A stretch of DNA of 64,000 nucleotides, taken from NCBI RefSeq assembly GCF_902459685.1, contig NZ_CABPSF010000003.1, positions 868,001-932,000 of the forward strand, read 5' to 3'. Source of the stretch: Pandoraea iniqua (lineage in GTDB: Bacteria; Pseudomonadota; Gammaproteobacteria; Burkholderiales; Burkholderiaceae). A program made the translations under genes and the position numbers. The notes beneath the pieces are model-generated. The model was not told the origin of the DNA. It saw only the letters and a program-made list of their open reading frames with translations, and ran no database searches. This document shows, in pieces, positions 28,363 to 45,448 of this stretch (positions are counted from its first letter, which is position 1; the number at the start of each line of letters is the position of its first letter).

Positions 28363-28374
28363 TGTCGGAAACAT

Positions 28375-28766: not shown

Positions 28767-28846
28767 CATCGAGAAGCTCACAGGCCCCACCTTAGAAACG
28801 GCCATCCGCTCTTCAATCTGCCCCCCGCATTCACTTCAAGGCAGCC

Positions 28847-29436: not shown

Positions 29437-29483
29437 GCCAGCGCGTCGGGCGCTTCCCGGCATATCTACCGAGGGAAACAACC

Positions 29484-29729
29484 ATGAACGATGCACTTCA
29501 ACGACTCCGGTCGATCGGCACACAAGCGAGCATTGGTATCACGCTGGGTGCGGTGTCCTGCTTGGCCAAAGCAGCAGATGAGGGGGGTGGCGCCGACCTG
29601 TCCTCATTGACCGCCAACGTCAACATGGGCTCAACGACCACGGCAATCCTAGCCGTCGCGTTGTCGCTGGCTACTGTGTACGCAACGCTACGCGGCGCAA
29701 AGATCGTGCTCGCAGTCATCAAGGGGTAA
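29484..29729 (+). CDS. major coat protein (pVIII-type)
   Basis: Main virion protein of the filament. From ATG 29484 (GAGGGA site 8 bases upstream) the 81-residue precursor has a signal peptide ending near LAKAA, a short acidic mature N-terminus (DEGGGADLSSL), a hydrophobic span TTTAILAVALSLATVYATL and a basic C-terminus RGAKIVLAVIKG, exactly the pVIII architecture. A strong hairpin follows the stop. Confidence 0.9.
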   Translation: MNDALQRLRSIGTQASIGITLGAVSCLAKAADEGGGADLSSLTANVNMGSTTTAILAVALSLATVYATLRGAKIVLAVIKG

Positions 29730-29738
29730 TCGCCGCGC

Positions 29739-29779
29739 GTGGCCGAGTGCCCTATCGCGCGTATCGATCACTCGGCCAC
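29739..29779 (+). terminator. large hairpin after the major coat gene
   Basis: Perfect 11 bp stem GTGGCCGAGTG / CACTCGGCCAC with a 19-base loop, 10 bp after the coat-protein stop. It has no T run, so it may reduce readthrough or stabilise the coat mRNA, as the terminator after gene VIII does in Ff phages. Confidence 0.55.
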
Positions 29780-29826
29780 AAAAAGCAGCATGCGGCATCA
29801 CCCACAACCACTCGCTGGAGCACGCC

Positions 29827-29913
29827 GTGTCGACGCAAGAACTGTGGAATCTGTCTTTCTTCGCGTGGGGAATCGTGTGCGGTTGGGCTGTCGTCCAAGG
29901 CCTGAGGGGGTAG
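29827..29913 (+). CDS. 28-residue membrane protein, candidate pVII/pIX-type minor coat
   Basis: A tiny gene starting at GTG 29827 with GGAG 8 bases upstream. The product MSTQELWNLSFFAWGIVCGW and a short VVQGLRG end is a single hydrophobic span with a basic tail, the size and nature of filamentous phage end-cap proteins. It stops 2 bp before the adsorption-protein ATG. No homology claimed. Confidence 0.6.
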   Translation: MSTQELWNLSFFAWGIVCGWAVVQGLRG

Positions 29914-29915
29914 CG

Positions 29916-31580
29916 ATGAAACGAACGATAGTGACTCTAGTGCTAATGACTGTATTGGTACACCAACCAGCCATACCGCAAGCGCTCCCGGTGGCGAAAT
30001 TCGCCATAAATCGTGCCATAGCAGGCGTTCTTACGAGAGTTGCAACATCCCGTGGTTTTGCTGCTAACGATCCGAGAGTGATCGCAACGCTGGAAGCGAT
30101 CTCATCGGTAAGCACGGAGCTCAACGTCGTCGCAACTGCCGCCGGAATCGGGTTGTCTCTCTTAGGGGCTCCTGTATGGCTGACGATCATCGCGGGACTT
30201 GGCCTCGCATCCGCAGATGTGCCATTCATCGTTGCAAAGCTGGGGGATGCTGAAGTCGAAATCGCGCAAACATACCTAGGTGAGGTGGCGCTTACGAGCA
30301 CTATCCCTCCTGACAAGCCCATCACCCTACCGCGCTACCCTGAGTTTGAGCCCCCCACCGATTGGTTGGGCTTTTTTGAAGAGCCCAGGCGACTCGGAGC
30401 GCACATTTATAGAACGCCCGCTTGCTCATACAGCGCTCCTCAGGATGTATGCCGCGAATTTCCACTGCTGCCGCCAGTCTCCACTGGCATTGCCCTCAGG
30501 CATCCGGAGTACGCCCTTGAAATCCCGTTCATATCGATTTCCGAGCTTGAAGACCTGCGAACTCGCTGGATATTTGATCCGGGGGATCCAGATCCTCAAC
30601 TAAAGATCATCTATAAGCTCGATGAAATTGGCGACGCGCGCTATTACGAACGGATGTGGACTAACAAGGCATGGCCTTGCATTAAGAGCGTTCCTTCATC
30701 CTGTCCTGCCAAGTATCAATGGGTGACGATGGAGCTAAATCTCGATTTGTTCGACATCACCCTCGACGGGTATCACGGACGCCCGCGAATCACGACGCGA
30801 ACGGTGTATTCCAATCTGGATGATGTGCAGGTCGGCATGAATAGCAACTTCTCAAAGATGCCGCTCAGCCCCCAGACACTGGCAAACATCGTCGATGAAG
30901 TATGGCTGCGAGCGGCAGAGTTGCCCCACTACGTGGGCATGCCATATCGAGAGTCCGAACCCGTTACCGAAGAGGACGTGGAGATATGGGTAAAGGCGAA
31001 CCCTCAGCAGATGCCGTATATCGGCGATGTGTTCGAACCGGCCAATGATCCGGACGAGGAGAGAGTCACGATTTCCCCACGCATTCGTCCAAGAGAGGAC
31101 CCCGCGCCACAGACTGATCCTGAAATTAATCCACGCGCCGACCCGGTGGCGACGCCCGTGACGAATCCGAAACCTGCTCTCGATCCCGAAAATAAGACTG
31201 ATCCTGATCCCAACCAAAACAAGAATCCCCAAGGCGCACAGGACGTCAATGTCATCAACCGTCCAACCGTTGATATCGGCAACCGCGTCAAGGTCGATAT
31301 CGACGTAGGTGACACCCCGAAAGTGGGCGAGCCGAAACTAGAGAAAACGCCAACCGCGAAGATGATTGTCGAGCCAATTCTGGGCCTGACGTCCGACTTC
31401 AAGTCCTGGTCAATGCCTTCACACGGGGCAAGCTGCCCACGTACATCGCTCCACGTTTTCGATCACACCATCGCCATCGACGCGCATTGCGATATTGCCG
31501 AGCGCGTCGCGCCACAACTTCGTCAAGCCATGCTCGCTGCGTTCGCTGTCATGGCACTTTTGATAGTGCTTTCCGCTTGA
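29916..31580 (+). CDS. adsorption/minor coat protein (pIII-like, TspB-related C-terminus)
   Basis: Virion tip protein that should bind the host receptor. From ATG 29916 it has a signal peptide MKRTIVTLVLMTVLVHQPAI, a hydrophobic region near residues 60-90, a middle domain with several Cys and a Asp/Pro/Asn-rich linker (around residues 385-450, DPEINPRADP and similar), and a C-terminal domain CPRTSLHVFDHTIAIDAHC followed by a final membrane span (AAFAVMALLIVLSA). The linker plus C-terminal anchor is typical of pIII. 554 residues. The frame runs on upstream but would overlap the small coat gene. Confidence 0.8.
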   Translation: MKRTIVTLVLMTVLVHQPAIPQALPVAKFAINRAIAGVLTRVATSRGFAANDPRVIATLEAISSVSTELNVVATAAGIGLSLLGAPVWLTIIAGLGLASADVPFIVAKLGDAEVEIAQTYLGEVALTSTIPPDKPITLPRYPEFEPPTDWLGFFEEPRRLGAHIYRTPACSYSAPQDVCREFPLLPPVSTGIALRHPEYALEIPFISISELEDLRTRWIFDPGDPDPQLKIIYKLDEIGDARYYERMWTNKAWPCIKSVPSSCPAKYQWVTMELNLDLFDITLDGYHGRPRITTRTVYSNLDDVQVGMNSNFSKMPLSPQTLANIVDEVWLRAAELPHYVGMPYRESEPVTEEDVEIWVKANPQQMPYIGDVFEPANDPDEERVTISPRIRPREDPAPQTDPEINPRADPVATPVTNPKPALDPENKTDPDPNQNKNPQGAQDVNVINRPTVDIGNRVKVDIDVGDTPKVGEPKLEKTPTAKMIVEPILGLTSDFKSWSMPSHGASCPRTSLHVFDHTIAIDAHCDIAERVAPQLRQAMLAAFAVMALLIVLSA

Positions 31581-31587
31581 GGTCTCC

Positions 31588-31887
31588 ATGCCACTGTTTG
31601 CCATTCTCGCGAGTGTCCTGAATACCCTGCTGGGCTTCATGTTCCGTTCGGCGGTGATCAAGTGGGCGACCTTCTTCGCGCTCTGGTACGTCGTCACTGA
31701 GTTCATCGATGTTATCAAATCCGGAAACTTGATTCCGAAGGTGTCCGGGCTCAATGAAGCACTGTCGGGCATCCCTACCGGCGTCTGGTACTGGCTCGAT
31801 CTATTCGCCGTCTCTCAGGGGGGCCCAATGATCATTAGTGCGATTGCAGCGCGCTTCCTGATCCGACGCCTGCCTCTAATCGGATAA
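31588..31887 (+). CDS. minor coat protein, DUF2523 family (pVI-like)
   Basis: A 99-residue membrane protein with two or more hydrophobic segments: FAILASVLNTLLGFMF, ATFFALWYVVTEFIDV, and a C-terminal MIISAIAARFLIRRLPLIG. The spacer NEALSGIPTGVWYWLDLF matches the DUF2523 family, found immediately before zot-type genes in many inoviruses. 7 bp behind the adsorption gene and 5 bp before zot. Confidence 0.85.
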   Translation: MPLFAILASVLNTLLGFMFRSAVIKWATFFALWYVVTEFIDVIKSGNLIPKVSGLNEALSGIPTGVWYWLDLFAVSQGGPMIISAIAARFLIRRLPLIG

Positions 31888-31892
31888 TCGCC

Positions 31893-32954
31893 ATGGCTAT
31901 CAATGCTTACACCGGCTTGATGGGTTCAGGAAAGAGCTATGAAGTCGTCAGCAGCGTCATCGTGCCCGCCGTACTGGCTGGCCGACGTGTGGTGACCAAC
32001 ATCGACGGCATCAACCCAGAAGCCATCTATGCCTACTGCACGGATGTTAAGAAAGCCAATGTAGCGACGCTCGGCCCGGTGATTCCGATCTCGAACACGG
32101 ATGTCCTCAAGGACGGCTTCTTTCCCGACGAAACGAAGCCCGATGCTGAGTCACTCGTCAAAGCTGGCGACCTTGTGGCGATCGATGAAGCCTGGGAGTT
32201 TTGGTCTGTCTCGCATAAGATCAGCCCCGAGCACATGCGATTCTTTCGAATGCATCGCCACTACGTGGATCCGGAAACCGGATTGTCGTGTGACGTCGCG
32301 TTGATGATTCAATCGATCACCGATCTGCACCGGCAATTGCGCTCTGTGATCGAGGTCACCTTTGTGACGAAGAAGCTCAAAGAGTTGGGGCTAGGCAATC
32401 GGTATCGCGTCGAGATGTTCGGTGGCGGCAGAATCACCAAAGCCGCACGATTTGGGACCACGACAACGACGTACGACAAGGCGATATTTCCGCTCTATCA
32501 ATCGTATGCGGGCGGAAGCGGAAAAGAGCGTGCCATTGATGCACGCCAGAACATGCTGCGAAACCCAAAGCTATGGATGACAGCCGTTCTCTTCCTTGCG
32601 TGCTGGATCGGCGTAGGCATGTTCCTCTGGCGGTTCTTCCATCCCCAATCGCCGGAGAAGCCCGCGGCAAACTCGGTTTCACTGGATCGCGCTCCATCTG
32701 CGCTAGTGAACGTCACATCGGAGCTCGCGCCACATCCGCAGATCTTCAGCGAAAAGTGGCGAATTGCAGGACGGTATTCGATCGCCGGGAGGCGATATGT
32801 GGCGCTGAGCGACAACTCAGGCCGGCTACGCATTGAACCCTCAACGATGTTCGGTAATACCGGCCTCGCGATCATTGGCGAAATCGATGGTCAACAGGTC
32901 AGCCCTTGGTCGGGCCAGAAGCCATCGTCCCGCGCCTTTGGAGCGGCACCGTGA
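31893..32954 (+). CDS. zot: phage assembly ATPase, Zot domain (pI-like)
   Basis: Inner-membrane ATPase that drives filamentous phage assembly and extrusion. Walker A at GLMGSGKS (residues 8-15), Walker B LVAIDEAWEFW, and one membrane span (MTAVLFLACWIGVGMFLW, around residue 230) with a C-terminal periplasmic tail. The name comes from the cholera phage protein; here it is a phage morphogenesis gene and no toxin activity is implied. Overlaps the secretin gene by 4 bp. Confidence 0.93.
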   Translation: MAINAYTGLMGSGKSYEVVSSVIVPAVLAGRRVVTNIDGINPEAIYAYCTDVKKANVATLGPVIPISNTDVLKDGFFPDETKPDAESLVKAGDLVAIDEAWEFWSVSHKISPEHMRFFRMHRHYVDPETGLSCDVALMIQSITDLHRQLRSVIEVTFVTKKLKELGLGNRYRVEMFGGGRITKAARFGTTTTTYDKAIFPLYQSYAGGSGKERAIDARQNMLRNPKLWMTAVLFLACWIGVGMFLWRFFHPQSPEKPAANSVSLDRAPSALVNVTSELAPHPQIFSEKWRIAGRYSIAGRRYVALSDNSGRLRIEPSTMFGNTGLAIIGEIDGQQVSPWSGQKPSSRAFGAAP

Positions 32955-34633
32955 AGCGCATTTGTGCCGGCGCGATTCTGATTGCTACCACTCAGGCGTT
33001 TGCGGACCATCCACATATCCTGCCCGCGTCCATCGATTACCGAGGCCCTGCCCTGCACGACGACGGGCCGTCCACGGGTGAAAACATTGAACGACGCCAT
33101 GCGCTCGGTTGGAACGGAGATGATGTATCAATACCGCAATCGAACCGATCAAAGGCATCCGGAAAATTCGACTTTCAGTTCGTCAACGTCGCGCAGCTCG
33201 TTTCCTTGCTCTACGTCGAGGCGCTCAAGTCGCCGTATGTAATCTCTCCGGAAGTGCTGGATGACCAAAGAATGGTGTCGATACGGTTCGACACACGCCG
33301 AGGCGACCTACGCAAATTTCTGGAGGTATTTCTCGACTCTCTCGGGCTCAGCATCGAGAAGCGTCGGGGCGTCGACTTTGTATTCAAGCGGCCCCCCATT
33401 GGCACCGTCTCGACTCCTCAATCCACCTACGTCTATCGCTCCCAATACAGAGACACGTCCTATCTAGCGAATCTTGTCAGGCCGGTATTCCGAGGACAGT
33501 TCACCGTCAATCGTGAAGTATCGACGCCATCGCATGGTCGAGCCAGTGGAGACGTGCCTGACGGATCCGCTGCCACGCTCATTGATCAAAAGGGCGACAC
33601 GCTTGTATTCCGTGGAACGGCAGCAGAGATTTTGACGCTCCAACAGCTATTGCCCCAGGTCGACACGCCCGTCGGAGAGGTTGCCGTGCGCGCAACGGCC
33701 TACGAGGTGACACAAGGTACCGAGCATGGCTCCGCGTTTCAACTTGCACTCGATCTGCTCTCCAAAGGGTTGGGACTATCTGTGCACGTGACAGGCGAGA
33801 GGTTAGGCAACGCTATTCATATCAAAGCAGGCGACCTCGACACGGTATTCTCCGCGCTGTCGAAAGACACCCGATTCCAGGTCATCAACAGCCCCAACTT
33901 GCGAATCCGATCCGGCGCGCGCGGAAAGCTGACGATTGGACAAAAGGTGCCCATATTGAAATCAGTGTCCTACCCTCGCGGTGGCGGTGAACCTGTGCAG
34001 TCGGTGGAGTACCACTCGTCCGGAGTCATCTTCGAGTTGAAGCCGACGGTAAAAGACTGCGTTATCGATCTGCACGTTTCGCAGCAAATCAGCGACTTCG
34101 TGAAAACGACGACGGGGGTCAACAAGTCTCCGACGCTTAATACCCGCGAAGTCAGCACGGAGATCAGCTTGCAGGAAAACGAGATCATCCTGATTGGCGG
34201 CCTGACAACCAACAAAGAAGCCGACAACGAGACAGGGTTGTCTTTCCTGCCCAAATTCTTCAGCAGCCGGTCAGATACAGCGTCAAATACGGAAATCCTG
34301 CTCGTGCTCCAAGTTGAACGCGTCGCGCCGTCTAGCGTCGGGAGTGTCGGCGCCGATATCGGAGCCAAGAGATCCCAGGAGAGCATCTGCGACGTCAGGG
34401 CCGTTGACGCGCGGCTCAGCGCGGCCCGCGCGACCGAGCAGCGGGTAGCACCACTAGCGCGGATCGAAGCAGCGCCGCCGGCTTCACAGCCCCTTGCTGG
34501 AAGCCGACTTTCCGACCTCGCTCGCGAAGCGGCAGAGATTGAGGAAGAAACGACGCTTCGCGCGACCGCCGCCGCCCGCAGGGGCGAGGACGGCGGGGGC
34601 GCGCGAAGCGCGTCCCTATACTTGTATCAGTAA
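32951..34633 (+). CDS. outer-membrane secretin (pIV-like)
   Basis: Multimeric outer-membrane channel for phage exit. The start is GTG 32951 (GTGA overlap with zot) giving a signal peptide MKRICAGAILIATTQAFA; the frame is open 45 bases further upstream inside zot. Domains: N0/N1-like (FVNVAQLVSLLYVEALKSPY, shortened), then the secretin core with GQKVPILKSVSYPRGGGEPV, SGVIFELKPTV and ENEIILIGGLTTNKE. After the core comes an unusual Ala/Arg/Glu-rich tail of about 110 residues. 560 residues. Confidence 0.9.
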   Translation: MKRICAGAILIATTQAFADHPHILPASIDYRGPALHDDGPSTGENIERRHALGWNGDDVSIPQSNRSKASGKFDFQFVNVAQLVSLLYVEALKSPYVISPEVLDDQRMVSIRFDTRRGDLRKFLEVFLDSLGLSIEKRRGVDFVFKRPPIGTVSTPQSTYVYRSQYRDTSYLANLVRPVFRGQFTVNREVSTPSHGRASGDVPDGSAATLIDQKGDTLVFRGTAAEILTLQQLLPQVDTPVGEVAVRATAYEVTQGTEHGSAFQLALDLLSKGLGLSVHVTGERLGNAIHIKAGDLDTVFSALSKDTRFQVINSPNLRIRSGARGKLTIGQKVPILKSVSYPRGGGEPVQSVEYHSSGVIFELKPTVKDCVIDLHVSQQISDFVKTTTGVNKSPTLNTREVSTEISLQENEIILIGGLTTNKEADNETGLSFLPKFFSSRSDTASNTEILLVLQVERVAPSSVGSVGADIGAKRSQESICDVRAVDARLSAARATEQRVAPLARIEAAPPASQPLAGSRLSDLAREAAEIEEETTLRATAAARRGEDGGGARSASLYLYQ

Positions 34634-34688
34634 CACTTAACGTACAGGGATCCAGCAACAAAAACTCACAGCCTGAGCAAGCCCCCCC

Positions 34689-34725
34689 GGAATATCGACA
34701 TTCCCAATCAATCAAGTTGGATTGA
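34689..34725. repeat. two adjacent inverted repeats between secretin and replication genes
   Basis: GGAAT-ATCGAC-ATTCC (34689-34704) and TCAATC-AAGTTG-GATTGA (34708-34725), in a 125 bp spacer just before the replication gene. Hairpins here could be part of the nicking origin used by the HUH protein or a transcription attenuator. Confidence 0.5.
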
Positions 34726-34758
34726 GGGCGATAGTGCAAACATCAACCGGGAGTTGCC

Positions 34759-35538
34759 ATGCATGAACCGGGTCTTATGGATTTCTCACCCTTTCGACGT
34801 GAATGGGTGGTCAGAGGACGTAACTTTGGCGATGGTCAGGTCGAGGTCACGGCTATCCGCTTTGACCGTTACGTCGGTGCTCAGGGCTTGAGCACGATGC
34901 CAAAGGCAAAACGTGGAGAATCGCAGAACACGGAAGACAGTCGGATGTCCGCGGCGAAACGCGCCAAGCAGCAGGTCAGATTACGCTGCAAGGCGATAGG
35001 CGCGGATCGGATGATTACGCTGACCTACCGCGAGAACATGCTGGATAAGGATCGGCTGAAGCACGATTTCGACTCGCTTCGCCGTCGCTTGGGAAAGGTG
35101 ATGGACTTTCGGTATGTGGCCGTAGCTGAGAGGCAGAAGCGCGGCGCGTGGCATCTACACATCGCAGTCCGAGGTCGACAGAATTACAGGATGCTACGCT
35201 CGATCTGGTTGACCATCGTTGGCGACGACAACGGCTTTGTCCAGGTACGAAATCCGTTCCGTGAGAAAGGCCTTCGTCACAAGCTCGCCTCCTACCTCAG
35301 CAAGTACATCACCAAAGACTTCGCCGAACACTCGCTTAACGAGAAGCGATATTGGACGAGCAAATGCGTTGAGATCCGTGAGCGCCACGCGATCGCACAC
35401 TTGCTGTCTGACGATCCGACGAATGCCATCGTGACTGCATTCGAAGCAGCACAGCTAGCGGGCGCGCCCCTGGACAGGTGCCAAACATTTTGGAGCCAGG
35501 AACTTGGCTGCTTTTGGTTAGCAACTCGGGAGAACTGA
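34759..35538 (+). CDS. rolling-circle replication initiator (HUH endonuclease, pII-like)
   Basis: Nicks the phage origin to start rolling-circle replication. HUH features: motif 1 MITLTYREN (residues 85-93), metal-binding WHLHIAV (His132-x-His134) and the tyrosine motif SYLSKYITK with Tyr179 and Tyr183, two tyrosines four apart on a helix. 259 residues. The N-terminal 60 residues are basic. It follows the secretin by 125 bp of hairpin-containing DNA and precedes an AlpA-like gene by 1 bp. Confidence 0.85.
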   Translation: MHEPGLMDFSPFRREWVVRGRNFGDGQVEVTAIRFDRYVGAQGLSTMPKAKRGESQNTEDSRMSAAKRAKQQVRLRCKAIGADRMITLTYRENMLDKDRLKHDFDSLRRRLGKVMDFRYVAVAERQKRGAWHLHIAVRGRQNYRMLRSIWLTIVGDDNGFVQVRNPFREKGLRHKLASYLSKYITKDFAEHSLNEKRYWTSKCVEIRERHAIAHLLSDDPTNAIVTAFEAAQLAGAPLDRCQTFWSQELGCFWLATREN

Positions 35539-35539
35539 T

Positions 35540-35908
35540 ATGGAAAACACATCCGATCCAAGGCAACTACCCTTTGACTCAGAAATCGAAATGGTTTGTC
35601 TAGTTGAACGCATAGCGCATGCTATAGCTGATCGCATGATTCCTCCCGTTCCGGTCTCAAGCCAACTTTGGAATGGGAGGCTAATTGGGGCCTATTTACA
35701 ACGCTCACCGGCCGTCGTGCTTGAGCGTATCGTCACCCTTCCCGGCTTCCCTGCTCCCATTCGCCTTCCTTCAACACGGGCGAAACCGAAAGACGAAATT
35801 GAATCGCCAAAATTGACCACTGGGCAGCCGCTTTGGAAGGCGACCGAAGTCATCCGGTGGGCCGAGTCTCATCAACACAAGCACGTTGGTCGCCCACGAA
35901 AAAGCTAA
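35540..35908 (+). CDS. AlpA-like / MerR-type winged HTH protein
   Basis: A 122-residue protein in the phage operon. Central stretch GAYLQRSPAVVLERIVTLPG then FPAPIRLPSTRAK and PLWKATEVIRWAESHQHKHV fits the AlpA/excisionase pattern (site-recognition helix, 'FP.pirl' wing, then a Trp-containing helix). Ends with GRPRKS, an AT-hook-like tail. Possible roles: regulation of the phage or of island excision. Function inferred from pattern and place. Confidence 0.6.
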   Translation: MENTSDPRQLPFDSEIEMVCLVERIAHAIADRMIPPVPVSSQLWNGRLIGAYLQRSPAVVLERIVTLPGFPAPIRLPSTRAKPKDEIESPKLTTGQPLWKATEVIRWAESHQHKHVGRPRKS

Positions 35909-36454
35909 CCTAAATCCGCACGCCATGCCCACCTTTAGGCAGACACGTTTGCTCCGAGCAAGTGGCCCTTACGTTTGCTCTGGCTTCCCCAATGCGCGTG
36001 GAACAAACCCGCATCGACAATCCGCTCGACATTGTCCTCGCGCCCAATGTAGCGAGAAACAAAAGGCATCTCACGTTGGCTGCTATCTCGCTATTTCGAT
36101 CGTTGAATGAACGTGATACATCATCGTCTGTGACGTTTTGGTAAGCGCACGCTCCGGGGGTGGGCGTGGGCCACTGACACGCCATGTTCGCGTCTTTTCC
36201 GATTACATTGGTGGCGGGTCGATGTTGACTCCGAATGCGAGTCCAAAAGCTGCTTGTAATCGGCGGTCATTCAGCTTGAGCTCAATTCGATACGAATAGA
36301 TATTTGCTGCTCTGTCCTCTTTTCGCAACCAGATTTCGGACGAAATGCGCAATAATTTTTGCCCGCCCAAGGTTCGCGCCTTTTTTTTGGGCGCTCTCTA
36401 AAATATGCATAGATGGCCCCATGGGGCCGTCTATTAACTATTAGGCAATACAAG
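35909..36454. other. 546 bp spacer between the prophage and the HEPN-like gene
   Basis: No recognised plus-strand gene. Contains the inverted repeat ACATTG-N10-CAATGT (about 36028-36049), a GC palindrome GGCCCCATGGGGCC (36414-36427), a T8 run flanked by GCGCC/GGGCGC near 36380-36400, and a possible minus-strand mini-gene at 36203-36370. May include phage origin or terminator sequences. Confidence 0.4.
36203..36370 (-). CDS. possible small protein or gene remnant
   Basis: A 55-codon minus-strand frame starting at TTG with AAGG 8 bases upstream. The product (KLLRISSEIWLRKEDRAAN, then ELKLNDRRLQAAFGLAFGV) has plausible amphipathic character but no recognised family. It could be a remnant; low confidence. 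Confidence 0.22.
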   Translation of the reverse strand: MGGQKLLRISSEIWLRKEDRAANIYSYRIELKLNDRRLQAAFGLAFGVNIDPPPM

Positions 36455-37141
36455 ATGCAGATCAACCCTTCCGTCCATCGCATTCTCTCGCTTGCCTTGG
36501 CAGTCATCAGAGGCTTCTTTTGGCCAGTTGCGATTGCGCTTGCAATCGTGGCGTGGGGTGCGTTCGCACCTTGGCAGCCTTCGAATGACATAAAGGACAA
36601 GGTCAAGGCTTTTTTTGCAATCCTGTTCTTCATCATGTTCTTTTTCGGCCAATACAAGCGCGTCGAGAAGCAAACAGATGACAAGGACTCATTTAAAAGC
36701 GTGAACGAGAAACTGCTGTCGCTGCAAGAACTCGTACGCAAAATTCGACCTGCTGATCACCCGGAGACTCCCACACCGTCTCAAATTTCTGTTGGCGATG
36801 CTAGCTCCCTTCTAGTCGAATCAAGAGCCCTTTTGAAATCTGGGCATACGCTCGCCGCGCTACTTCAAGGTGGCGTAGCTTTCGAACACGCACTAAGGGC
36901 TTTTGCACGTCATCTCAAAGGCGACGAGTCTGCAGCACTCCCTCTACACCAACTAATTCGCCACGTGGTTCCACAAGAAATGATGGGCGAACTGCACGCG
37001 TTAAGGCAAATTCGAAATCGGTTGACGCACATTTCAGAAGCCGAGCTGTCAGACCTGCCAGATGCGAACAGAGTTTTGGATGGTTACGAGTGGGCTGTGG
37101 CGGAACTGGGGAATATGGTGAGGCGTGATGAAGCTGCCTAG
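36455..37141 (+). CDS. membrane-anchored HEPN-like protein, possible defence effector
   Basis: A 228-residue protein not assigned to a named family. Two N-terminal membrane segments (residues 11-37 and 50-66), a short polar linker, then a helical cytoplasmic domain (SLLVESRALLKSGHTLAALL, HALRAFARHLKG) ending with RQIRNRLTHISE. The R-N-R-L-T-H pattern (Arg187-x4-His192) is the HEPN RNase signature. ATG 36455 chosen; ATG 36413 would add 14 residues. It lies in a defence island next to a DUF4145 pseudogene, also HEPN-fold. Function inferred. Confidence 0.6.
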   Translation: MQINPSVHRILSLALAVIRGFFWPVAIALAIVAWGAFAPWQPSNDIKDKVKAFFAILFFIMFFFGQYKRVEKQTDDKDSFKSVNEKLLSLQELVRKIRPADHPETPTPSQISVGDASSLLVESRALLKSGHTLAALLQGGVAFEHALRAFARHLKGDESAALPLHQLIRHVVPQEMMGELHALRQIRNRLTHISEAELSDLPDANRVLDGYEWAVAELGNMVRRDEAA

Positions 37142-37343
37142 AAGGTCGTTTGAAACGGACACGCACAAACAGAGCAACGCACTACCCTTGCATATCGGCA
37201 AACTTCAACGTTGGATGTTTTTCGAATCAATGCCTGATGCTGAAGACCCAATGAAGGAGCCCCCTTTCCTGATTGGCCAGAATGGAAATGGTTTGATTCC
37301 GTCGAAGAGCCTCTGAAAGGAGCGGTAGTCAAAGTCCAGGAAA

Positions 37344-38137
37344 ATGAAGGCAATGAGGTCGGTGTCCTTCGCATCTCCTTCGGGACGAATTATGCTCATG
37401 TGCGAGTCTGTCACACAACAAGACAAAGGAAAAATGATAGCGGAACTGGTTGCCGATAGCCCTCGCTGCGGGGCTGGACTCATCACATTGGATTTAGCTG
37501 GCGAAAATTTTCTTCGAATCGAATACGGCTGGCAGACCTGGTATGAAGCGTTCTGCATTTGCCGGAAGTGCCACTACGACAGCATCATTATTTTGGCGCA
37601 AACCACAGACGCATCCCAGGTCGACGTTCGTAGGGTCGGTCTTGCGGGCATCCCCCGCTCCCTGAACGACTACTTTCGCGTTCAAGGATACCTAAGTCTT
37701 AAGGACGAAAAAGCCGAGCAGCCTCCAGAACACCTTCCGGCAGATATCGAAGCGGCGTTCAAGGAGGGCGGCACCTGCATGGCCGTGAAGTGCTACAACA
37801 CTGCGGGCGCAATGTTCCGGTTGTGCCTCGACTTTGCAACGAAATCGATGATGCCTGCCGACGATGTCGATGGCCTTACCAAACCAACACGCGGGAGCCT
37901 CGGGTTTCGGCTTGCGTGGCTCTTTGACACTGGAAGGTTGCCAGAAGCGTTGCGCGAGCTTGCGGCCCGTGTCAAGGACCTGGCAACGATGGCGCCCACG
38001 ATGGAACGCTGACGAAGGTGGATGCAGAGGACCTGCACGAATTTGCTTATGAGTTGCTCGAGCGTTTGTATACCGAGCCGAAGCGCCTTGATGCAGCCAA
38101 AGAGCGACGGGCGGCACCGCATAACGACATCGGGTAA
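37344..38137 (+). pseudogene. DUF4145 (HEPN-fold) gene with a -1 frameshift near the 3' end
   Basis: The open frame to 38012 ends with a nonsense tail, but shifting at about 37980 restores a family-like end: GNDGAHDGTLTKVDAEDL followed by EFAYELLERLYTEPKRLD and a stop at 38137. One base is missing in the CTG-GC stretch at about 37978-37984. The body matches DUF4145: AAFKEGGTCMAVKCYNTAGA, then LCLDFATKSMMP and LGFRLAWLFDTGRLPEAL. The conserved R-x-GN-x-AH signature lies at the break. Start uncertain (37344 or 37353). Sequencing error is possible. Confidence 0.7.
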
Positions 38138-38153
38138 CGTGTATCTACCAGCC

Positions 38154-38388
38154 TCAGAGTTGCTTATGAGCTTTAAGGAGAAACAGCTTCAAGAGATTTA
38201 GGGCTTGGGCCTCACTCATTGCCCCCCAACTCGTTCCTTGCGCCGCGTTCTGAACGGTAAACCAGCCATTCTTCATCAGCCTTATCGAGGCAACACGCTT
38301 CACCCTTAGCGCTATAAAACGAATGTGAATCTGCGGGGATATTTATCTTGTTCAGAAACTCAACCAATTCTTGAGTAGTTCAGATCAT
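38154..38388 (-). pseudogene. decayed small gene, minus strand
   Basis: Two adjoining frames together read as one protein: TTQELVEFLNKINIPADSHS and LVYRSERGARNELG, then after a 1-base change in a six-G run (near 38219-38227) SEAQALNLLKLFLLKAHKQL. A TGA also falls at codon 3 after the ATG at 38388. The pattern ('YSERG', then a closing LL-x-LLL helix) resembles a small uncharacterised family often found near toxin systems, from memory only. Not expected to be functional. Confidence 0.45.
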
Positions 38389-38951
38389 TCCATTTCTCCA
38401 AGTTCAGGCTCCCAAGCGGTACGGGACGGAATTTGGCATCTTGTTCTGCATGCCAAGGCGATCGGCAAGCATTTGAAGCGGCGAGTGAGGTTAGTCGCTC
38501 GCTTCGGGTCGCAAGCAGTCCGTCGTGACCGGCGGAACGGCCACAAGCGGTTTCTTAAGCGAAGCGGCGCTGAGCCATTGGAACAACCGTTAAACCGCAC
38601 AAGCGGTCGGTCAATGACCTCTCCAACGGCCGGATCCTGTCGCCAGTTGGGGGGCAACGGCAAAGCAAGGGACGTCGTCCGGTTCCGCATACACCGAGTT
38701 ACAACGTCAGCTTTATGAGCGGCGGTGGCATTTGGAGGGCGAGCCGAATGTAGCCGGTCGAATTAGGATCTCCGTACTGAGCGTCATCAAGATGTGACGG
38801 ACCATCTGCTTACGTCGCGCTTTGTGTTCCGGCGACGGACTTGAAAATGTTGGGCGACAGCCGTGCAGCCTCAACTGACAGCTTTCCACCCCCCTTAACG
38901 CTTTTACCAGCCGACGTCATCATCTTTGGCCGATAATTCCGGTTGGTTACA
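38389..38951. other. 560 bp gene-free spacer, possible remnant sequence
   Basis: No convincing gene. CACAAGCGGT occurs twice (about 38540 and 38598) in a stretch rich in short GC repeats; a plus-strand frame at 38371-38718 is Arg/Ser-rich and not protein-like. Upstream region of the ATPase operon; no clear promoter found by eye. Confidence 0.4.
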
Positions 38952-40184
38952 ATGACGCACCACCCAGCGCTTCGAGGAGGCCGCTTGCTGACTTCATTTT
39001 CGGTAGAAAACTATCGCGCTTTCGCTCGTCCGCAGCAGATCGACGTGCGTCCCATTACCTTGTTCTTTGGCTGGAATAGCGGCGGAAAAAGCGCCCTCAT
39101 ACGCTTTCTGCCTTTGCTGGCGGAATCACTGGAGGCAGATGCGTCGCCCATCTGGTTAGCCGGTACCGTGGGTCGCCGTGCTACATGGCCCGAGCTGGTA
39201 TGCGGCGCGACGAAAAGACTGTCGCTGAACTTCGGACTGACGTGGAACCTTGAAGGGCGCGAACGGAGTGCCAGTTGGGAAATCGGCGGTGACGCTGAAG
39301 GAACGTATCAGCAGATTAACCGTCTGGTAGCTAACGGCTTGTCGGGCGAAAGTACATTCGATGGCATGGAACCGCGTCTGCCACGCCATCCGTTGAATTC
39401 GTTGATCCCAGACTTCTCGGTGAATGACGCAGACAAGAACCTGTTACTCGGACTGAAAGCCGACCTAGATGATTTCCGCAAACAGGTTCAGTGGGTAAGT
39501 GGAGTGCGGGCAAGGCCCGCGCGTTTTGTCGCATATGGAGGAGGCCAGCCATCGCATTTGAGCCCCGATGGCATTGAATCCGTCGATTATCTTGTGGCTG
39601 ATAGTCTGGAGCCAGGCGACGACATTCTCATGCAGTCAGTTGCAACCTTCTTCGCATCTCTCGGCCTGAAGCTCCACGTCATAAACGACGCGCCTGGAGT
39701 CTGGCACGTTGCATTGAACAGCAATGTAAGTACTTCCCCTCTAGTTAATATCTGTGACACAGGGGAGGGATTCGCGCAGGTTTTGCCAGTACTTGTTGCA
39801 TTGGCACGGGCCCAGGCTCGGGGCCCTAAGATACTCTGCCTAGAGCAACCTGAGTTGCACTTGCACACGCGCGCACAAAAGGCATTAGCAGAACACATGG
39901 TTTCCGCCGTACGAGCTGGTGGAGGAACCAAGCTTCTGCTCGAGACGCACTCCGAGGTTTTGTTGACAAGTATACAGCTTGCTCTGGCCGAGGGACATCT
40001 TAAGCCCGAAGACGTCCGCGTGTATTGGGTCGAATCGGAGGCGGACGGGACGAGCGATGTCACACCAGTGGAATTTGACTCGGCCGGTCGGCCGTTGACA
40101 TCCGCACTTGCGGTCGCATTTCAGGAGGCCGTAGAGATTGGCCATGCGCTATTACGGCTCCAATCCGGCAAAGGGGGTGTCTAG
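38952..40184 (+). CDS. AAA/ABC-type ATPase (OLD/AAA_21-like), first gene of a three-gene operon
   Basis: Probably an energy-using sensor or clamp in a defence system. The 410-residue protein has Walker A GWNSGGKSALIRFL (residues 40-53), an ABC-like signature DTGEGFAQVLPVLVALA (about 269-285), Walker B ILCLEQPELHLHTRAQ (294-309) and the H-switch LLLETHSEVLL (about 328-338), the pattern of OLD and DUF3696-type ATPases. ATG 38952 chosen; TTG 38943 is an alternative. Its stop shares one base with the next start (TAGTG), so translation is coupled. Confidence 0.82.
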   Translation: MTHHPALRGGRLLTSFSVENYRAFARPQQIDVRPITLFFGWNSGGKSALIRFLPLLAESLEADASPIWLAGTVGRRATWPELVCGATKRLSLNFGLTWNLEGRERSASWEIGGDAEGTYQQINRLVANGLSGESTFDGMEPRLPRHPLNSLIPDFSVNDADKNLLLGLKADLDDFRKQVQWVSGVRARPARFVAYGGGQPSHLSPDGIESVDYLVADSLEPGDDILMQSVATFFASLGLKLHVINDAPGVWHVALNSNVSTSPLVNICDTGEGFAQVLPVLVALARAQARGPKILCLEQPELHLHTRAQKALAEHMVSAVRAGGGTKLLLETHSEVLLTSIQLALAEGHLKPEDVRVYWVESEADGTSDVTPVEFDSAGRPLTSALAVAFQEAVEIGHALLRLQSGKGGV

Positions 40185-41185
40185 TGAGGGTAATGCTCAC
40201 CGCAGACGCCGTTGCCGTGATTCTTGCTGACGAAGAAAAATCTTCAAAACTTCATACCCTGTTAGGCCACGCCCGAGACGGTCGACATACGGTCGTAGTC
40301 GATCCTGCGAATGCCTTGGACGGCTGGTTGTCGACCATCGATGATGCGTCCCGCAATCAGTATGGTATTGCGTTACAGTTGTGCGCGCGTGAAGCCTCGC
40401 TTCAGGGAAGAGATATTGCGACGATAAAAATAGCAGCGGGTCCTGTTGCGACTTGGGACGATCCACTCGCTGAGTTGCCGTTCGATCTCACTCTGGATGT
40501 GCTGGCGGAGCCGCTGGGCGTCTTGGTCGAGAATGCAGAGAACGATTTCGCGTTTATTTTGAGTCTAATGTCGCCAAGCCAGCGGGAGAGTTTTCTGCGC
40601 AAGATTGACCGACGATGGATTGAACCGTTACACGGCGGCGGAAGCGATGCCATAGCGCGGCTGCGAGCTAGGTCTGACAGGCCGGCTATGAAGCTCCGGA
40701 CGTATTTCATGTTTGACAGTGACCGTCTGCATCCAGACGAATGCGCCCCGACCTGGGACGGCAGCAGCCCTGACGGCAGGCAGATTGAATGTCAGGCTTT
40801 CCGCTGGGAACCTGAGGTCATGAAGCATCTCTCGGGTCGATACTGGCGGCTCCATCGGAGATTCATTGAGTCCTACATGCCGATAGACGAACTGCAAGCA
40901 GAGAATTCCAACGCGGCGGAAGCTTGGGGACGCCTGAGCGAGGAGCAGCGATGGTTCTACAATATGAAGGATGGGTTTGCAAAAGATCGAAAGCGGCACG
41001 ATAGCGCGCGCGCTCGCGACCTGTACGGCGACGTCGCGGACGAAGATCGCGCAGCGCTCGAACAGGGCTTCGGAAGCAAGCTCGCTGGTCGCTTCCAGAA
41101 GCACGCCAACCACTGCTTCAACTGGGATCGGGCAGCACTGACGGAAGCCCGGCACCAAATATATCAACTTCTCCGGTTGGCCTAG
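40184..41185 (+). CDS. TOPRIM-like protein of the three-gene operon
   Basis: A 333-residue protein, family not recognised. Near residues 110-120 it has LGVLVENAENDFAFILSLM, and near 174-182 YFMFDSDRLHP: a Glu in a hydrophobic strand followed by an Asp-x-Asp after another strand, the TOPRIM active-site layout. In OLD systems ATPase and TOPRIM are in one chain; here they are separate genes. GTG 40184 or ATG 40193. 3 bp before the DUF262 gene. A nuclease role is inferred. Confidence 0.65.
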   Translation: MRVMLTADAVAVILADEEKSSKLHTLLGHARDGRHTVVVDPANALDGWLSTIDDASRNQYGIALQLCAREASLQGRDIATIKIAAGPVATWDDPLAELPFDLTLDVLAEPLGVLVENAENDFAFILSLMSPSQRESFLRKIDRRWIEPLHGGGSDAIARLRARSDRPAMKLRTYFMFDSDRLHPDECAPTWDGSSPDGRQIECQAFRWEPEVMKHLSGRYWRLHRRFIESYMPIDELQAENSNAAEAWGRLSEEQRWFYNMKDGFAKDRKRHDSARARDLYGDVADEDRAALEQGFGSKLAGRFQKHANHCFNWDRAALTEARHQIYQLLRLA

Positions 41186-41188
41186 CAA

Positions 41189-43354
41189 ATGATCGAAAGT
41201 CTGACTGCACTTGCATCCGAAAACTCGAACCCCAGCTTGCGGAGTCTCGTAGAGGATGTGCAACGAGGGCATATCCGGGTTCCGCGTTTTCAGCGCCCGT
41301 TTATCTGGACGGACGAGCAGCGCCTTGAACTGTTGGCGTCGGTGCGTGACGGGATGCCAATAGGTAGCCTGCTGGTGTGGCGCACGACAAAATTTGAACT
41401 TGCGACTTTTCCTACGGTTGGCCCCCATGCGATTCCGGCTTCTGCGCGGGTCGCGACGCTTGGTTGGCAATATCTGCTCGACGGCCATCAGCGAGTCTCT
41501 ACGCTGCTAGGCCTTTTGTTGCCTGTACCTGAGCACGTCGCTGTTGAGCCGGACGATTCCCAGATTGATTGGGCGATTGAATACGATCTCGAAATTGAAG
41601 AATTCGTATTTCGTACCAAACGGTTGCGGGCGCGTCGGCACGCGCCGCTGCTACCCCTCTGGACGTTGTTTGATGGGCGTCTCGTTAATAAGCATATGCG
41701 CGCAATGCGCGGGCACCACAAGAACGCGTCGGAGCAAGAGTTAGACCAATGGGAGGCACGGGCAGATCAGTTGTCGTACCAGTTTCAACAGTTTCGGGTT
41801 CCTATCGTTGCAATGGTAACCGACGACCTAAACCTCGCGGCGAAAGCGTTCCAGCGCATTAATAGCCTTGGCACTCCGATGTCGGAGGCTCATCTCGTTG
41901 CGGCCTTGTCGTGGCGTCCCGACTTCGATTTGCGGGAACGTATCGAAAATATCCGGGAGACTCTGCGGCCGGAGTGGCGGGCAATTGAGGACAACCTGTA
42001 TCTTCAGATATGCAAGGGTCTTTGTGGTCTGGATCTGACTCGTCCCGGACAGTCGGAGCTCGTGAAAGCGATTGAAACCAACTACGGACTGCTTGACGAA
42101 GCCGCTTTGGGACTGCGGGAGGCCATCAACCTGTTGCATGAAGCAGGCGTAACGAGAGCCGAACTTCTGCCATACGGGTACCAACTGACCTTGATTGCAA
42201 TAGCGTTGGCTCACGCCGGCTTTGTAGATGAGCGAACGCGACAGTCCATCATCGACTGGTTCTGGCGGAGTAGCTGGTCAGAAGCATTCGCGTCATCCAG
42301 CTTCCGGCAAGTGCGCGCACAGCAGCAACTGTTACACGCCGCTATCTATGACGAGACCGCTATTTCCGACGAGTGGGAAATGCCTGAGAAGCTCCCTTCG
42401 CGATTTGATTTCAGGTCGGCGCGCTCGCGACTTCTGATGATGCGGATGGCCATTCGCATCGAAAAGGAAGGAAAGTGGCTGCTTTCCGAATACGGTCGCT
42501 TTGCGATGGTGCGATTTGTGCCCCCTCCATCAGATGCTTCCCCTAAGCTTAAGAGACTATGTCAAGGACCGGGAAACCGGTTTCTCGTCTCTCCGCTTGA
42601 TCCGGACATTCTCCACCGTGAGCTGGTGCACGGGTCTGGAGTCAACGCGTTCCTCTATGGTCATCTCATCGACGAAGAGATGCTGAAGATGTATCAGAGA
42701 GGCGATCTGGAGGGCTTTCTCCAGCGCAGGACAGAAGAGATTGAACTTTGGGACTTCGCTGAATGGAGTTCTCTGGCCGGTTCTCGCGCCCAATTCGAGC
42801 AGACTTTGCCGCAATACGTTGACCTACTGCCGCCAACGGAAAAGAGGCTCGCGCGATTCGGCGTACGCATCATAGGGAGCGACGGGCAACCTGTCGTCGG
42901 TGCTAGGATTGCATTGATTGATAGCCAAGGGTGGATTCGTAGGAGCAGAACAGATCATCAGGGAAGGTGCTCGATGGATTTTCATCCAGCTCAACCCTAT
43001 GAGTTTCTGGTCGCTGCCGCTAGCGTTTCGGGATTCCAGTACAGTGGGCTGTTGCCAGAGGAAGGTGGCGACTTGCGACTCGAGCCCCTGCAGCTCGGAG
43101 GCTCAATAATTTGCGACGGAAAAGTTAAGATTCCCGGATTAAGTGGCACATTTTCAGGACAGCCTGACGGCAACGTTCTGTTTCGAGTAGAGCTGCATGG
43201 GCTCTTGAATATTCGGGAGCCGAGCAACACGTATCTATACTCGCTAAATGAGCCGATCGAACTGGCGGATCCTATAACCGGGCGGTATGTGTCGGTAAAA
43301 GTGAAGTACATGACTGGTCAAGTCCTTCTTCTCGATTATCGCTACATTTCCTAG
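41189..43354 (+). CDS. long DUF262 protein with C-terminal Ig-like/beta domain
   Basis: DUF262 proteins share a ParB-like fold and are found in GmrSD-type and other phage-defence systems. The N-terminal motifs are RVPRFQRPFIWTDEQR (residues 30-45), MPIGSLLVWRT and YLLDGHQRVSTL (95-106), typical DUF262 boxes. A long helical middle follows. From about residue 555 a beta-rich tail begins with VVGARIALIDSQGWIRRSRT, like a carboxypeptidase-regulatory Ig fold, and a second beta segment to the end. No DUF1524 HNH motif was seen. 721 residues; the last gene of the operon. Confidence 0.82.
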   Translation: MIESLTALASENSNPSLRSLVEDVQRGHIRVPRFQRPFIWTDEQRLELLASVRDGMPIGSLLVWRTTKFELATFPTVGPHAIPASARVATLGWQYLLDGHQRVSTLLGLLLPVPEHVAVEPDDSQIDWAIEYDLEIEEFVFRTKRLRARRHAPLLPLWTLFDGRLVNKHMRAMRGHHKNASEQELDQWEARADQLSYQFQQFRVPIVAMVTDDLNLAAKAFQRINSLGTPMSEAHLVAALSWRPDFDLRERIENIRETLRPEWRAIEDNLYLQICKGLCGLDLTRPGQSELVKAIETNYGLLDEAALGLREAINLLHEAGVTRAELLPYGYQLTLIAIALAHAGFVDERTRQSIIDWFWRSSWSEAFASSSFRQVRAQQQLLHAAIYDETAISDEWEMPEKLPSRFDFRSARSRLLMMRMAIRIEKEGKWLLSEYGRFAMVRFVPPPSDASPKLKRLCQGPGNRFLVSPLDPDILHRELVHGSGVNAFLYGHLIDEEMLKMYQRGDLEGFLQRRTEEIELWDFAEWSSLAGSRAQFEQTLPQYVDLLPPTEKRLARFGVRIIGSDGQPVVGARIALIDSQGWIRRSRTDHQGRCSMDFHPAQPYEFLVAAASVSGFQYSGLLPEEGGDLRLEPLQLGGSIICDGKVKIPGLSGTFSGQPDGNVLFRVELHGLLNIREPSNTYLYSLNEPIELADPITGRYVSVKVKYMTGQVLLLDYRYIS

Positions 43355-44237
43355 ATTACCGCCGCTGCCAAGAAAAAACTGCGCCAGCCGCTGGAGCAGC
43401 AGCCCGTCGCACGCGCGTTCGCGTTCAATGCGTAGGTCGTCGGCGCCGCGAGGCAACGTCTGCTGTGCATGGCGTCTGACGTCAGGGGGCCGTCCCCCGT
43501 CGCTGGTCGACATTGCGTCTATAAGGGCGCCGGGGACAACTGGTCGTCGCTGTCGACCGTGTCATCGACTAGCTTGGGCATAAATGGCTCTTGGATAGCC
43601 CCCAATTCGATACTGCGCTTCGGCAATGTGACGGCACAGCCCCCACCCTAGCGGTCCGCAGAACGCGACGCCAGCAGTATTTGTTAACACCACTAGCACC
43701 TTTGTGTATACCGCTGGCATCGATTATGAGCGCTTACAGCAAGTGGCGAAGGTGGTTATGGATTCAGTCATTTCCCCGCTCTGTCCCGATTGATAGAGAC
43801 TAGGTGTTCGGACGGGCATGGAATGCGCGAACACGTTCTCGATACTGCGGAGACGGACGTCCACGGTTCCTCGGAGAGTATGAGCTCACTAGTACACACC
43901 CGCTTGAGCGAACATTGACAGGCTCAGCTCCCAAAGCACGAATGTCAGCGGAGCAACTTGTACTCCCCTGCCAGCGCCGGTACCTGAATACCGGCAGAAG
44001 CCGATGGTCCTTCCCGCGAAGCGGGACAGGGACCGGCCGCCGTACTTCGGAAGCGGGCGTGGGATGGTACAAGTCCGAACGGCCGTTCGAGGGCGGAAGC
44101 GGGCATTGCGACCCCACACTCCAGAGAAATACACCCCGTTTCCTCATAGGCTAACGGGCACATGTCTCGATCAGTGTTTCGGCAAGAATGAAGTTTCCTT
44201 GAAGAAGTCCGTGACTGCTTGGGTTCAGCAATGGCTA
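43355..44237. other. 883 bp gene-free region with nested inverted repeats
   Basis: No protein gene recognised. From 43956 to 44104 it contains: ACTTGTAC/GTACAAGT (43956-43963, 44067-44074) enclosing GCCGGTA-CCTGAA-TACCGGC (43976-43995) and GGTCC..TCCCGC-GAA-GCGGGA..GGACC (44006-44034), then a 14 bp palindrome CGAACGGCCGTTCG (44076-44089) flanked by the 11 bp repeat CGGAAGCGGGC (44048-44058, 44094-44104). Structured RNA, ssDNA origin or a recombination site are possible. Confidence 0.55.
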
Positions 44238-45242
44238 CTAGTCAAGGCGCCCCGCAATATCCGTTGCAGTCGCGTTGTAGTAGGTCATTAATTCTGAAAT
44301 GTTTCTGTGACCAGTCATCCTAGCTAGGTCAAGAGGCTGCAACTTCTTAGCCAAACGAGTAATGGCTTCGTGTCGAGTGTCGTGAAACGTCACGTCCGGT
44401 ATGAGGGCTCGATCCCGTGCTTTCCTAAACAGCGCATCGCGACTGGAAGTCGACAGAGCAAACAACGGTTCGCCTTTCTGAACTTGCGGCAGCATCCTCA
44501 ACAGCTCTATCGCTCTCGACGACAGCGGCACATTCCGCGCCGTTCCGTTCTTCGTCATCGGAAGTCGTGCGAACTTGCCTTTGTAGTTCACAGTTTGTGA
44601 GGTCAGAGTGAGCATTTCGCTCGATCTCATTGCCGTCTCTATCGCAAAGAGAAACGCAACGGCTACGCGCTGCATTGGCTTCTCTACCCGCAATCCTTCT
44701 TCATATCCCATGCTCGCAAGCAGCGACTCGATTTCTTCCTGAGAAATCAACCGCTCCCGCCCGGGCGGATCCGGCGGCCGCTTCACTTCGATCATCGGGT
44801 CAGTCACCAGCCAGCCCCACTCCTTCCGGGCAACCTGAAACGCGTGCGACATCAGCGACATTTCTCGCGACGTCGAAGACCCAGATACTTCCCGCAACCG
44901 AACATCCCGCCAAGCCGCTACATGCGAAGGTCGAAGTTCCACCAACCTGACATCAGCAAACTTCCGCCCGTTGACCACTTTGCTGCCAATCAGCGGCAAC
45001 CGAAGCTTCTCCCATCGAGCCCCACGTTTCGTCGGACTCACTTTCAACTCGTACTCTCTGAGTACGTCACCGACCGTCAGCGTCTTACTGCCACCACCGC
45101 AAGCAATCGACCGCATTTCCGTCTCTCGCTGCGCACACCACGCCTGCGCAGCTGCCTTTGTATCGAACGTTCCACTGTCTCGCTCGCCGTTGACCATCAA
45201 CTGAGCGCGCCAGCCCTTCACCACCTTCTGAATGGATGCCAT
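44238..45242 (-). CDS. int: tyrosine site-specific integrase of the island
   Basis: Integrates and excises the island at tRNA-Leu. The catalytic set is complete: Arg206 (TAMRSSEML), Lys231 (MTKNG), His287 and Arg290 (FHDTRHEA), His312 (MTGHRN) and Tyr321/322 (LMTYYNA). The N-terminal 45 residues form an arm-binding domain (SGTFDTKAAAQAWCAQRE). 334 residues, typical for phage-type integrases. It starts 84 bp from the attR repeat and points away from the tRNA. Confidence 0.95.
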   Translation of the reverse strand: MASIQKVVKGWRAQLMVNGERDSGTFDTKAAAQAWCAQRETEMRSIACGGGSKTLTVGDVLREYELKVSPTKRGARWEKLRLPLIGSKVVNGRKFADVRLVELRPSHVAAWRDVRLREVSGSSTSREMSLMSHAFQVARKEWGWLVTDPMIEVKRPPDPPGRERLISQEEIESLLASMGYEEGLRVEKPMQRVAVAFLFAIETAMRSSEMLTLTSQTVNYKGKFARLPMTKNGTARNVPLSSRAIELLRMLPQVQKGEPLFALSTSSRDALFRKARDRALIPDVTFHDTRHEAITRLAKKLQPLDLARMTGHRNISELMTYYNATATDIAGRLD

Positions 45243-45325
45243 TTCGTGGGGAAATCTCGGGTAAAAATTGGGGAGGCCGCCCCGATTTTAGGTGCGAACA
45301 GGTGAGATTTAGGGTGACAGGGAGA

Positions 45326-45448
45326 ACAATCGGAATCCGCACAAAGCCCCCGCCTGGCGTTACCAGACGGTCTTTTGCGCGAATTTCAGGGAAGAAGTGA
45401 GACCTACAAAACCGATGCCAAAACGGGGAGTTGGTGCGAGGAAGGGGA
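45326..45448. repeat. right copy of the 123 bp attachment repeat (attR)
   Basis: Direct copy of 21008-21130 with five mismatches. Bases 45432-45448 are the 3' end of tRNA-Leu; the remainder lies just outside the gene. Because the tRNA is intact here, the element regenerates the gene's 3' end. Confidence 0.9.

Follow-up and report, generated by a model that had tools for sequence, protein, structure and literature searches.

The 64,000-nt stretch of Pandoraea iniqua DNA analyzed here (the window; contig NZ_CABPSF010000003.1, positions 868,001 to 932,000) contains an operon of three co-oriented open reading frames (ORFs), named genes A, B, and C, on the plus strand at 38943-43354 according to the ORF calls in the window. 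The question raised by this locus is whether the trio corresponds to a known kind of defense system, and how its parts could work together. The first-pass annotation of this DNA, made without searches, had been aware of no named system with these parts in this order. The comparison with PADLOC-DB did not bear this out, because the three proteins matched, in gene order, the models PDC-M55A (E value 7.8e-51), PDC-M55B (2.8e-29), and PDC-M55C (8.1e-70), so that the trio is a listed defense candidate. As judged from its sequence, the operon thus belongs to PDC-M55, a candidate anti-phage system of three parts, as a divergent member. The claim of novelty is also at odds with Menshen, a validated system whose ATPase and DUF262 proteins are related to those found here, according to a passage of a review (PMC10952713). 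An NCBIfam scan named none of the three proteins, with matches of A far below the cut-offs only, and without a match for B and C.

Neither a paper naming PDC-M55 nor a published experimental test of it was found in the literature searched, supplementary files being outside that search. The PDC candidates derive from a "guilt-by-embedding" approach, and most of them await validation, according to an excerpt of one paper (PMC12988326). A passage of another paper credits TOPRIM-linked OLD-ABC operons and their neighborhoods to earlier work by Aravind and colleagues (PMC12839542), in which the M55 trio may already have been drawn. As a discovery the operon is little new, being a listed candidate whose middle gene can now be given a likely domain, and it is useful as a target for tests.

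The division of the operon into an ATPase, a TOPRIM-like protein, and a DUF262 protein, as given in the first-pass annotation, agreed with the ORFs, with the Pfam and PADLOC-DB matches, and with a family profile of B:

38943..40184, plus strand: gene A, OLD/ABC-family ATPase (PDC-M55A), 413 aa (Pfam, PADLOC-DB)
40184..41185, plus strand: gene B, most likely a free-standing OLD-type TOPRIM-like protein (PDC-M55B), 333 aa, putative nuclease effector (PADLOC-DB, family profile)
41189..43354, plus strand: gene C, DUF262/GmrSD_N protein (PDC-M55C), 721 aa (Pfam, PADLOC-DB)

The genes are as tightly coupled as had been noted, with a 1-nt overlap of A and B (shared nucleotide 40184) followed by a 3-nt gap between B and C, and the motifs named earlier were all present, which are Walker A (residues 43-50 of A), DSD (178-180 of B), and DGHQR (98-102 of C). 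The start of gene A is uncertain, as it could be the TTG at 38943, equally possibly the ATG at 38952, or a later TTG. Gene B starts with the GTG at 40184, a position at which most relatives have their initial Met in the alignment.

Related loci were chosen by B alone, and A and C were then looked for. A profile scan of genome contigs gave four loci, which were from an Acidobacteria metagenome-assembled genome, Planomonospora, Thermomonospora, and Dactylosporangium, and a PDC-M55B search of 297 genomes of the order of Thermomonospora gave 21 strong matches (E ≤ 4e-102) and 2 weak ones. As two of the strong matches were in genomes already found by the contig scan (G929 and G930), the set consists of 23 distinct loci besides the window. 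In all 23 the three genes are adjacent, on one strand, and in the order A-B-C, and this conserved linkage, which had been proposed as a check by neighborhood search, extends across phyla. The fact that the three genes of the window match one model each of a single candidate, in order, and that 23/23 other loci keep this order, indicates that the trio is beyond chance, as far as sequence comparison can tell. The overlap of A and B is 1–17 nt in the 22 relatives measured (with chosen start codons; L083 left out). The ORF of gene C is short in L082 (241 aa) and L084 (256 aa), versus 541–624 aa in the other 20 relatives, and the A and C matches of L083 are fragmented.

The window copy resembles the other members of PDC-M55 in matching all three models and in its gene order, while it differs in the strength of the matches. 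The value of 2.8e-29 for B compares with 4e-102 to 5e-121 in 21 genomes, and that of 8.1e-70 for C with 1e-252 to 2e-267 in three genomes. The C protein of the window is also extended at its C terminus by about 170 residues. A similar degree of divergence was seen in the Acidobacteria locus (B, 1.7e-26; C, 3.7e-67).

B had a single match in the genome from which the window comes. In the window's order, 5 of 300 genomes passed E 0.001 with PDC-M55B, with a near full-length match in the window genome only; in its class 4 of 369 genomes passed, the other three matches being partial. For the phylum to which the Acidobacteria locus belongs, the count was 4 of 247 genomes, again with three partial matches. 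Weak PDC-M55B matches were obtained at 12 loci, 10 of which were scanned (the other two being L060 and L064, the latter covered by profile search only). Since ATPase domains were present in 8 of these 10, none of the weak loci was counted as M55. B had no match in phage records and viral contigs, and the one match in plasmid records had alignment figures identical to those of L068, so it was taken as the same sequence and not counted twice. The search with the operon DNA in plasmids and E. coli genomes gave no match.

In another genome of the window's order (G188, locus L085, 7034-9606), the gene of a 511-aa ATPase shares 4 nt with that of a B-like protein, 346 aa long, which matched PDC-M55B at 5.4e-9. 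The C profile found no DUF262 gene there in 18.5 kb. The existence of this DUF262-less pair suggests that A and B could form an ATPase–TOPRIM core to which C is an add-on, the L085 pair being a possible simpler form.

The sole PADLOC-DB match of B was PDC-M55B. The data showed that E116, D121, G152, G153, D178, D180, R226, E229, Y231, P233, Q255, R256, and K262 are invariant in an alignment of 24 rows, so that the putative catalytic residues E...GG...DxD are kept in every one of them. The motifs of B in the window are:

40529..40546, plus strand: acidic motif ENAEND, E116 to D121 (E116 and D121 invariant in 24 rows)
40715..40723, plus strand: DSD motif, D178 and D180 (both invariant in 24 rows)
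40856..40882, plus strand: RRFIESYMP, residues 225-233, of R-E-x-ENY-x-P type in most relatives (R226, E229, Y231, and P233 invariant in 24 rows; similar in fused OLD proteins)

When the profile built from this alignment was applied to the ORFs that had given the weak PDC-M55B matches, it aligned to OLD-type ATPases in their C-terminal parts. In L028 the profile match (461-574) overlaps the Pfam domain OLD-like_TOPRIM (PF20469, 459-530, 5.6e-11), and in L004 the match at 422-533 overlaps the same domain (422-491, 9.6e-10). Both proteins have every landmark (E, GG, DSD, and RExENY) in register with the profile, and a complete AAA_15 domain precedes the TOPRIM domain. Because the profile and the landmarks coincide with the OLD-like TOPRIM of these two fused proteins, the most likely identity of B is that of an OLD-type TOPRIM standing alone, with the ATPase on a separate gene. 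This gives substance to the TOPRIM idea of the first-pass annotation.

Several observations weigh against this assignment. The B profile matched L029, L005, L030, L065, L063, and L061 in its second half only (DSD to ENY), and DSER replaces DSD in L065 and L061. Pfam gave no match for B, and when all 24 members were scanned directly with Pfam, none had a TOPRIM match. The AlphaFold2 models of B and C, made from five-row alignments, were poor, with mean predicted local distance difference test (pLDDT) values of 50.5 and 51.7. The score of B against the DUF4435 profile was 15.7, compared with 13.2 ± 2.1 and a maximum of 18.9 for 60 column shuffles. As this score falls in the shuffle range, homology of B to AriB/DUF4435, the motifs of which co-align with those of B, is not claimed. 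Pfam found no DUF4435 match in B, the plasmid search for further DUF4435 gave no match, and neither did the PDB sequence search with B.

Gene A matched the Pfam domains AAA_15 (1.4e-15) and AAA_21 (2.5e-12), and its further PADLOC-DB matches were NsnB (4.8e-32), which ranks second to PDC-M55A, HEC-03B (5.5e-24), and AriA (1.4e-17). Its motifs were compared in an alignment of 23 rows, from which L083 was dropped (split or short ORF):

39069..39092, plus strand: Walker A of gene A, GWNSGGKS, residues 43-50 (G43, N45, G48, K49, and S50 invariant in 23 rows)
39831..39866, plus strand: Walker B region and catalytic Glu of gene A, ILCLEQPELHLH, residues 297-308 (E301, P303, E304, H306, and H308 invariant in 23 rows)
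39933..39956, plus strand: His-loop region of gene A, LLLETHSE, residues 331-338 (E334-T335-H336-S337-E338 invariant in 23 rows)

Gene C matched the Pfam domain GmrSD_N (DUF262; PF03235) at 2.9e-19, and its match to PDC-M55C spans residues 17-519. Weaker PADLOC-DB matches were those to HEC-05 (2e-14) and NsnA (1e-6, residues 10-61 only). The alignment of C contained 21 rows, L082, L083, and L084 being dropped (split or short ORFs):

41279..41308, plus strand: DUF262 motif VPRFQRPFIW of gene C, residues 31-40 (P32, F34, R36, P37, and W40 invariant in 21 rows)
41480..41494, plus strand: nucleoside triphosphate (NTP)-pocket motif DGHQR of gene C, residues 98-102 (D98, G99, Q101, and R102 invariant in 21 rows; H100 in 20/21)
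42839..43351, plus strand: extra C-terminal region of gene C, about residues 551-721 (absent from the 20 relatives aligned)

The extra region gave a weak CarboxypepD_reg match (PF13620, 2.8e-4), which is below the curated cut-off. Pfam found no DUF1524 or HNH match in the window C. Besides H100, the commonest histidine columns of the alignment are filled in 18/21 rows (residue 145), 18/21 (residue 341), 14/21 (residue 492), and 10/21, and the window protein has no histidine at 145 and 341. Because there is no DUF1524 match, and the two commonest histidine columns are not kept in the window, a GmrSD-type HNH nuclease is not apparent in the C sequence. This makes B the likely nuclease effector of the system, predicted to cut DNA or RNA.

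The profile of five C proteins matched PDB entry 7p9k (9.2e-14), which we take to be BrxU. This match, together with the DUF262 domain of the GmrSD family in C, would fit modification-dependent restriction, in which C would recognize modified phage DNA like GmrSD or BrxU, and the A-B pair would destroy the phage DNA directly and spare the cell. It is also in line with the reading of DNA modifications by DUF262 proteins in GmrSD, BrxU, and SspE, as described in part of a review (PMC10952713). On the other hand, C is without the DUF1524/HNH match, and the A-B pair need not depend on C, because a DUF262-less pair exists and, in the fused relatives of B, a single protein combines the ATPase with the TOPRIM. 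Hence, we consider direct restriction rather unlikely.

Our preferred explanation, to which we assign a probability of about 0.55, is that A acts as an OLD/ABC ATPase and C as a DUF262 nucleotide-driven sensor or switch, and that A and C would sense infection and unleash the nuclease B, as in PARIS. What the computations support are the three domain types, the intact motifs, the conserved linkage and order, and the place of the operon on an integrated element. The expectation that A and C sense infection and free B comes from the analogy with PARIS and with DUF262 switches. In PARIS, according to an excerpt of one paper, the TOPRIM nuclease AriB, a separate protein, is kept inactive by AriA and is set free once a phage protein acts as the trigger (PMC12409363), and in SspE, as passages of two sources describe, nucleotide hydrolysis by the DUF262 part licenses the nuclease (PMC10952713; PMC13251355). 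In the resting state A, with C, would hold B inactive. Upon infection C, A, or both would recognize a phage cue, nucleotide turnover would then alter the complex, and B, released or activated, would cut nucleic acid, probably that of the cell, so that growth would stop before the phage matures. The defense role, the formation of a complex, this order of events, the target, and the arrest of the cell are what we infer.

A more tentative proposal is that M55 could be a distinct class of immune machine, in which a PARIS-like split ATPase/TOPRIM pair is combined with a DUF262 reader. The reading of modified phage DNA, on the GmrSD/SspE principle, would there be wired to an abortive TOPRIM nuclease, and the L085 pair would be a simpler, reader-less form.

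The operon is located on an island, which is defined by the following features:

21008..45448, no strand: island with the operon, 24.3 kb, with 123-nt direct repeats at 21008-21130 and 45326-45448 (96%)
44238..45242, minus strand: tyrosine integrase of the island, adjoining tRNA-Leu (PF00589 3.9e-21)

The right repeat overlaps the 3′ end of the tRNA-Leu gene at 45432-45518, and a similar integrase gene was present at the same tRNA in 2 of the 11 same-genus loci read (L132 and L137; 74 and 77% DNA identity). No empty attachment site was found, as the left flank was unmatched in the 11 relative loci, which reached about 1.5 kb past the right-flank match (one of them less). The island had been called defense-rich. 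This description is appropriate for a type II restriction–modification (R-M) set at 23073-27111, which consists of a Dcm-like C5 methylase (minus strand), a 371-aa gene, and an MvaI/BcnI-family endonuclease, but the island also carries the integrase and filamentous-phage genes (31893-35538; Zot-type assembly ATPase, secretin, and ORF2/G2P-type replication protein). Two ORFs between the phage genes and the operon (36413-38012; 242 and 222 aa) had no Pfam match.

The location on an integrative element with an integrase and attachment-type repeats could also fit a function other than anti-phage defense, in which the operon would be an addiction or anti-plasmid module that stabilizes the integrated island. 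ATPase–nuclease systems can act against plasmids, as Wadjet does. Given that the family is listed in a defense database and that one relative adjoins BREX genes, this explanation appears very unlikely.

The neighbors of the relatives were compared with control regions for the 14 of 19 loci in which the contig was long enough for a control, using 14 control regions from the same contigs. After ORFs cut by an edge were dropped, 125 of 130 picked flanking ORFs and 119 of 130 control ORFs were scanned at a cut-off of E 1e-20. The flanking ORFs matched 18 PADLOC families, including BrxC, PglZ, BrxD, type I R-M, MkoA/MkoC, SngB, mad3, and a type II methylase, with the SngB match and the BrxD match being one ORF. 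The control ORFs matched 30 families; among the 25 listed, most were PD-T4-6 models with one member each, presumably all hit by one kinase, plus MkoA, mad3, and mad6. In L069 (119-11721), BrxC-PglZ-BrxD genes are located about 2 kb upstream of the M55 operon. The defense context of the 14 relatives is modest, with BREX in one locus, type I R-M in a locus, and some matches in the controls, which counts on the negative side of the preferred explanation as well. The neighborhood enrichment gives weak support to the defense role, and the R-M genes on the window's own island, like the BREX genes of L069, also speak for it.

The nearest validated relative of the operon is Menshen, which is also a three-gene operon, with an OLD-type ATPase (NsnB) and a DUF262 protein (NsnA) that are related to A and C. 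A 2025 survey is said, by its title, to concern the domain polymorphism of Menshen. The Menshen sample consisted of ten loci, and NsnC was taken from eight of them, as the rule used found none in two. The data showed that in 9/10 Menshen loci a DUF262 gene is located just upstream of the ATPase (C profile, E 0.05 or better), giving the order NsnA-NsnB-NsnC (DUF262-ATPase-NsnC), in contrast to A-B-C in M55. NsnA is mostly about 360–430 aa long. In five loci studied with Pfam (L086, L088, L092, L093, and L095), NsnB carried a C-terminal DUF3696 domain in 5/5, which had no match in the window A at E 0.1, NsnC was without a Pfam match in 5/5, and no TOPRIM domain was found in either protein.

The similarity of A to NsnB and of C to NsnA raises the question of whether the operon is a subtype of Menshen, with a TOPRIM protein in the place of NsnC, a permuted gene order, and the mechanism of Menshen. 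The ATPases were compared in one FastTree tree of 58 sequences, 17 of which were labeled AriA, our own label for ATPases adjoining DUF4435 genes. M55A, NsnB, and the ATPase of the two-gene pair were placed apart from the fused OLD ATPases and from the 17 DUF4435-adjacent ones (support 0.98), which agrees with such a subtype, as does a review passage linking a TOPRIM domain of the OLD family to a Menshen component (PMC10952713). Within this group the window A paired with the Acidobacteria copy (0.978), and the monophyly of M55A including the window copy had a support of 0.08, so that, by this tree, the window A could belong either with the other M55A or with NsnB. NsnC was rejected as a homolog of B, as B had no NsnC match in PADLOC-DB and the profile of eight NsnC proteins gave an hhalign probability of 0.2 against B. 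Together with the gene order and the domain content of NsnB and NsnC, these data make a Menshen subtype unlikely.

The release of B by A and C, as preferred here, would resemble PARIS (AriA-AriB), in which the ATPase and the TOPRIM nuclease are also encoded by separate adjacent genes. The differences are that the PARIS ATPase is a more distant OLD relative, that B has no significant similarity to DUF4435, and that M55 adds a DUF262 gene. The AriA match of A was weaker than those to PDC-M55A and NsnB, and in the tree A was placed apart from the DUF4435-adjacent ATPases. The fused OLD nucleases, including GajA of Gabija, have the same OLD ATPase and the TOPRIM type to which the B profile aligns, although in a single chain and without a DUF262 gene, whereas in M55 the two are on separate genes. 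Gabija further differs in combining the GajA fusion with the helicase GajB, in contrast to the DUF262 protein as the third gene of M55. GmrSD, BrxU, and SspE have in common with C the DUF262 domain, in which the NTP-pocket motif is intact, while C is without a DUF1524/HNH match and has its ATPase and TOPRIM partners on separate genes. With the likely OLD-type TOPRIM domain of B and the constant gene order across phyla, a candidate that had been anonymous becomes a machine open to tests, with mutable residues in each part, and the common ATPase, TOPRIM, and DUF262 modules tie together PARIS, Menshen, and the GmrSD-type systems.

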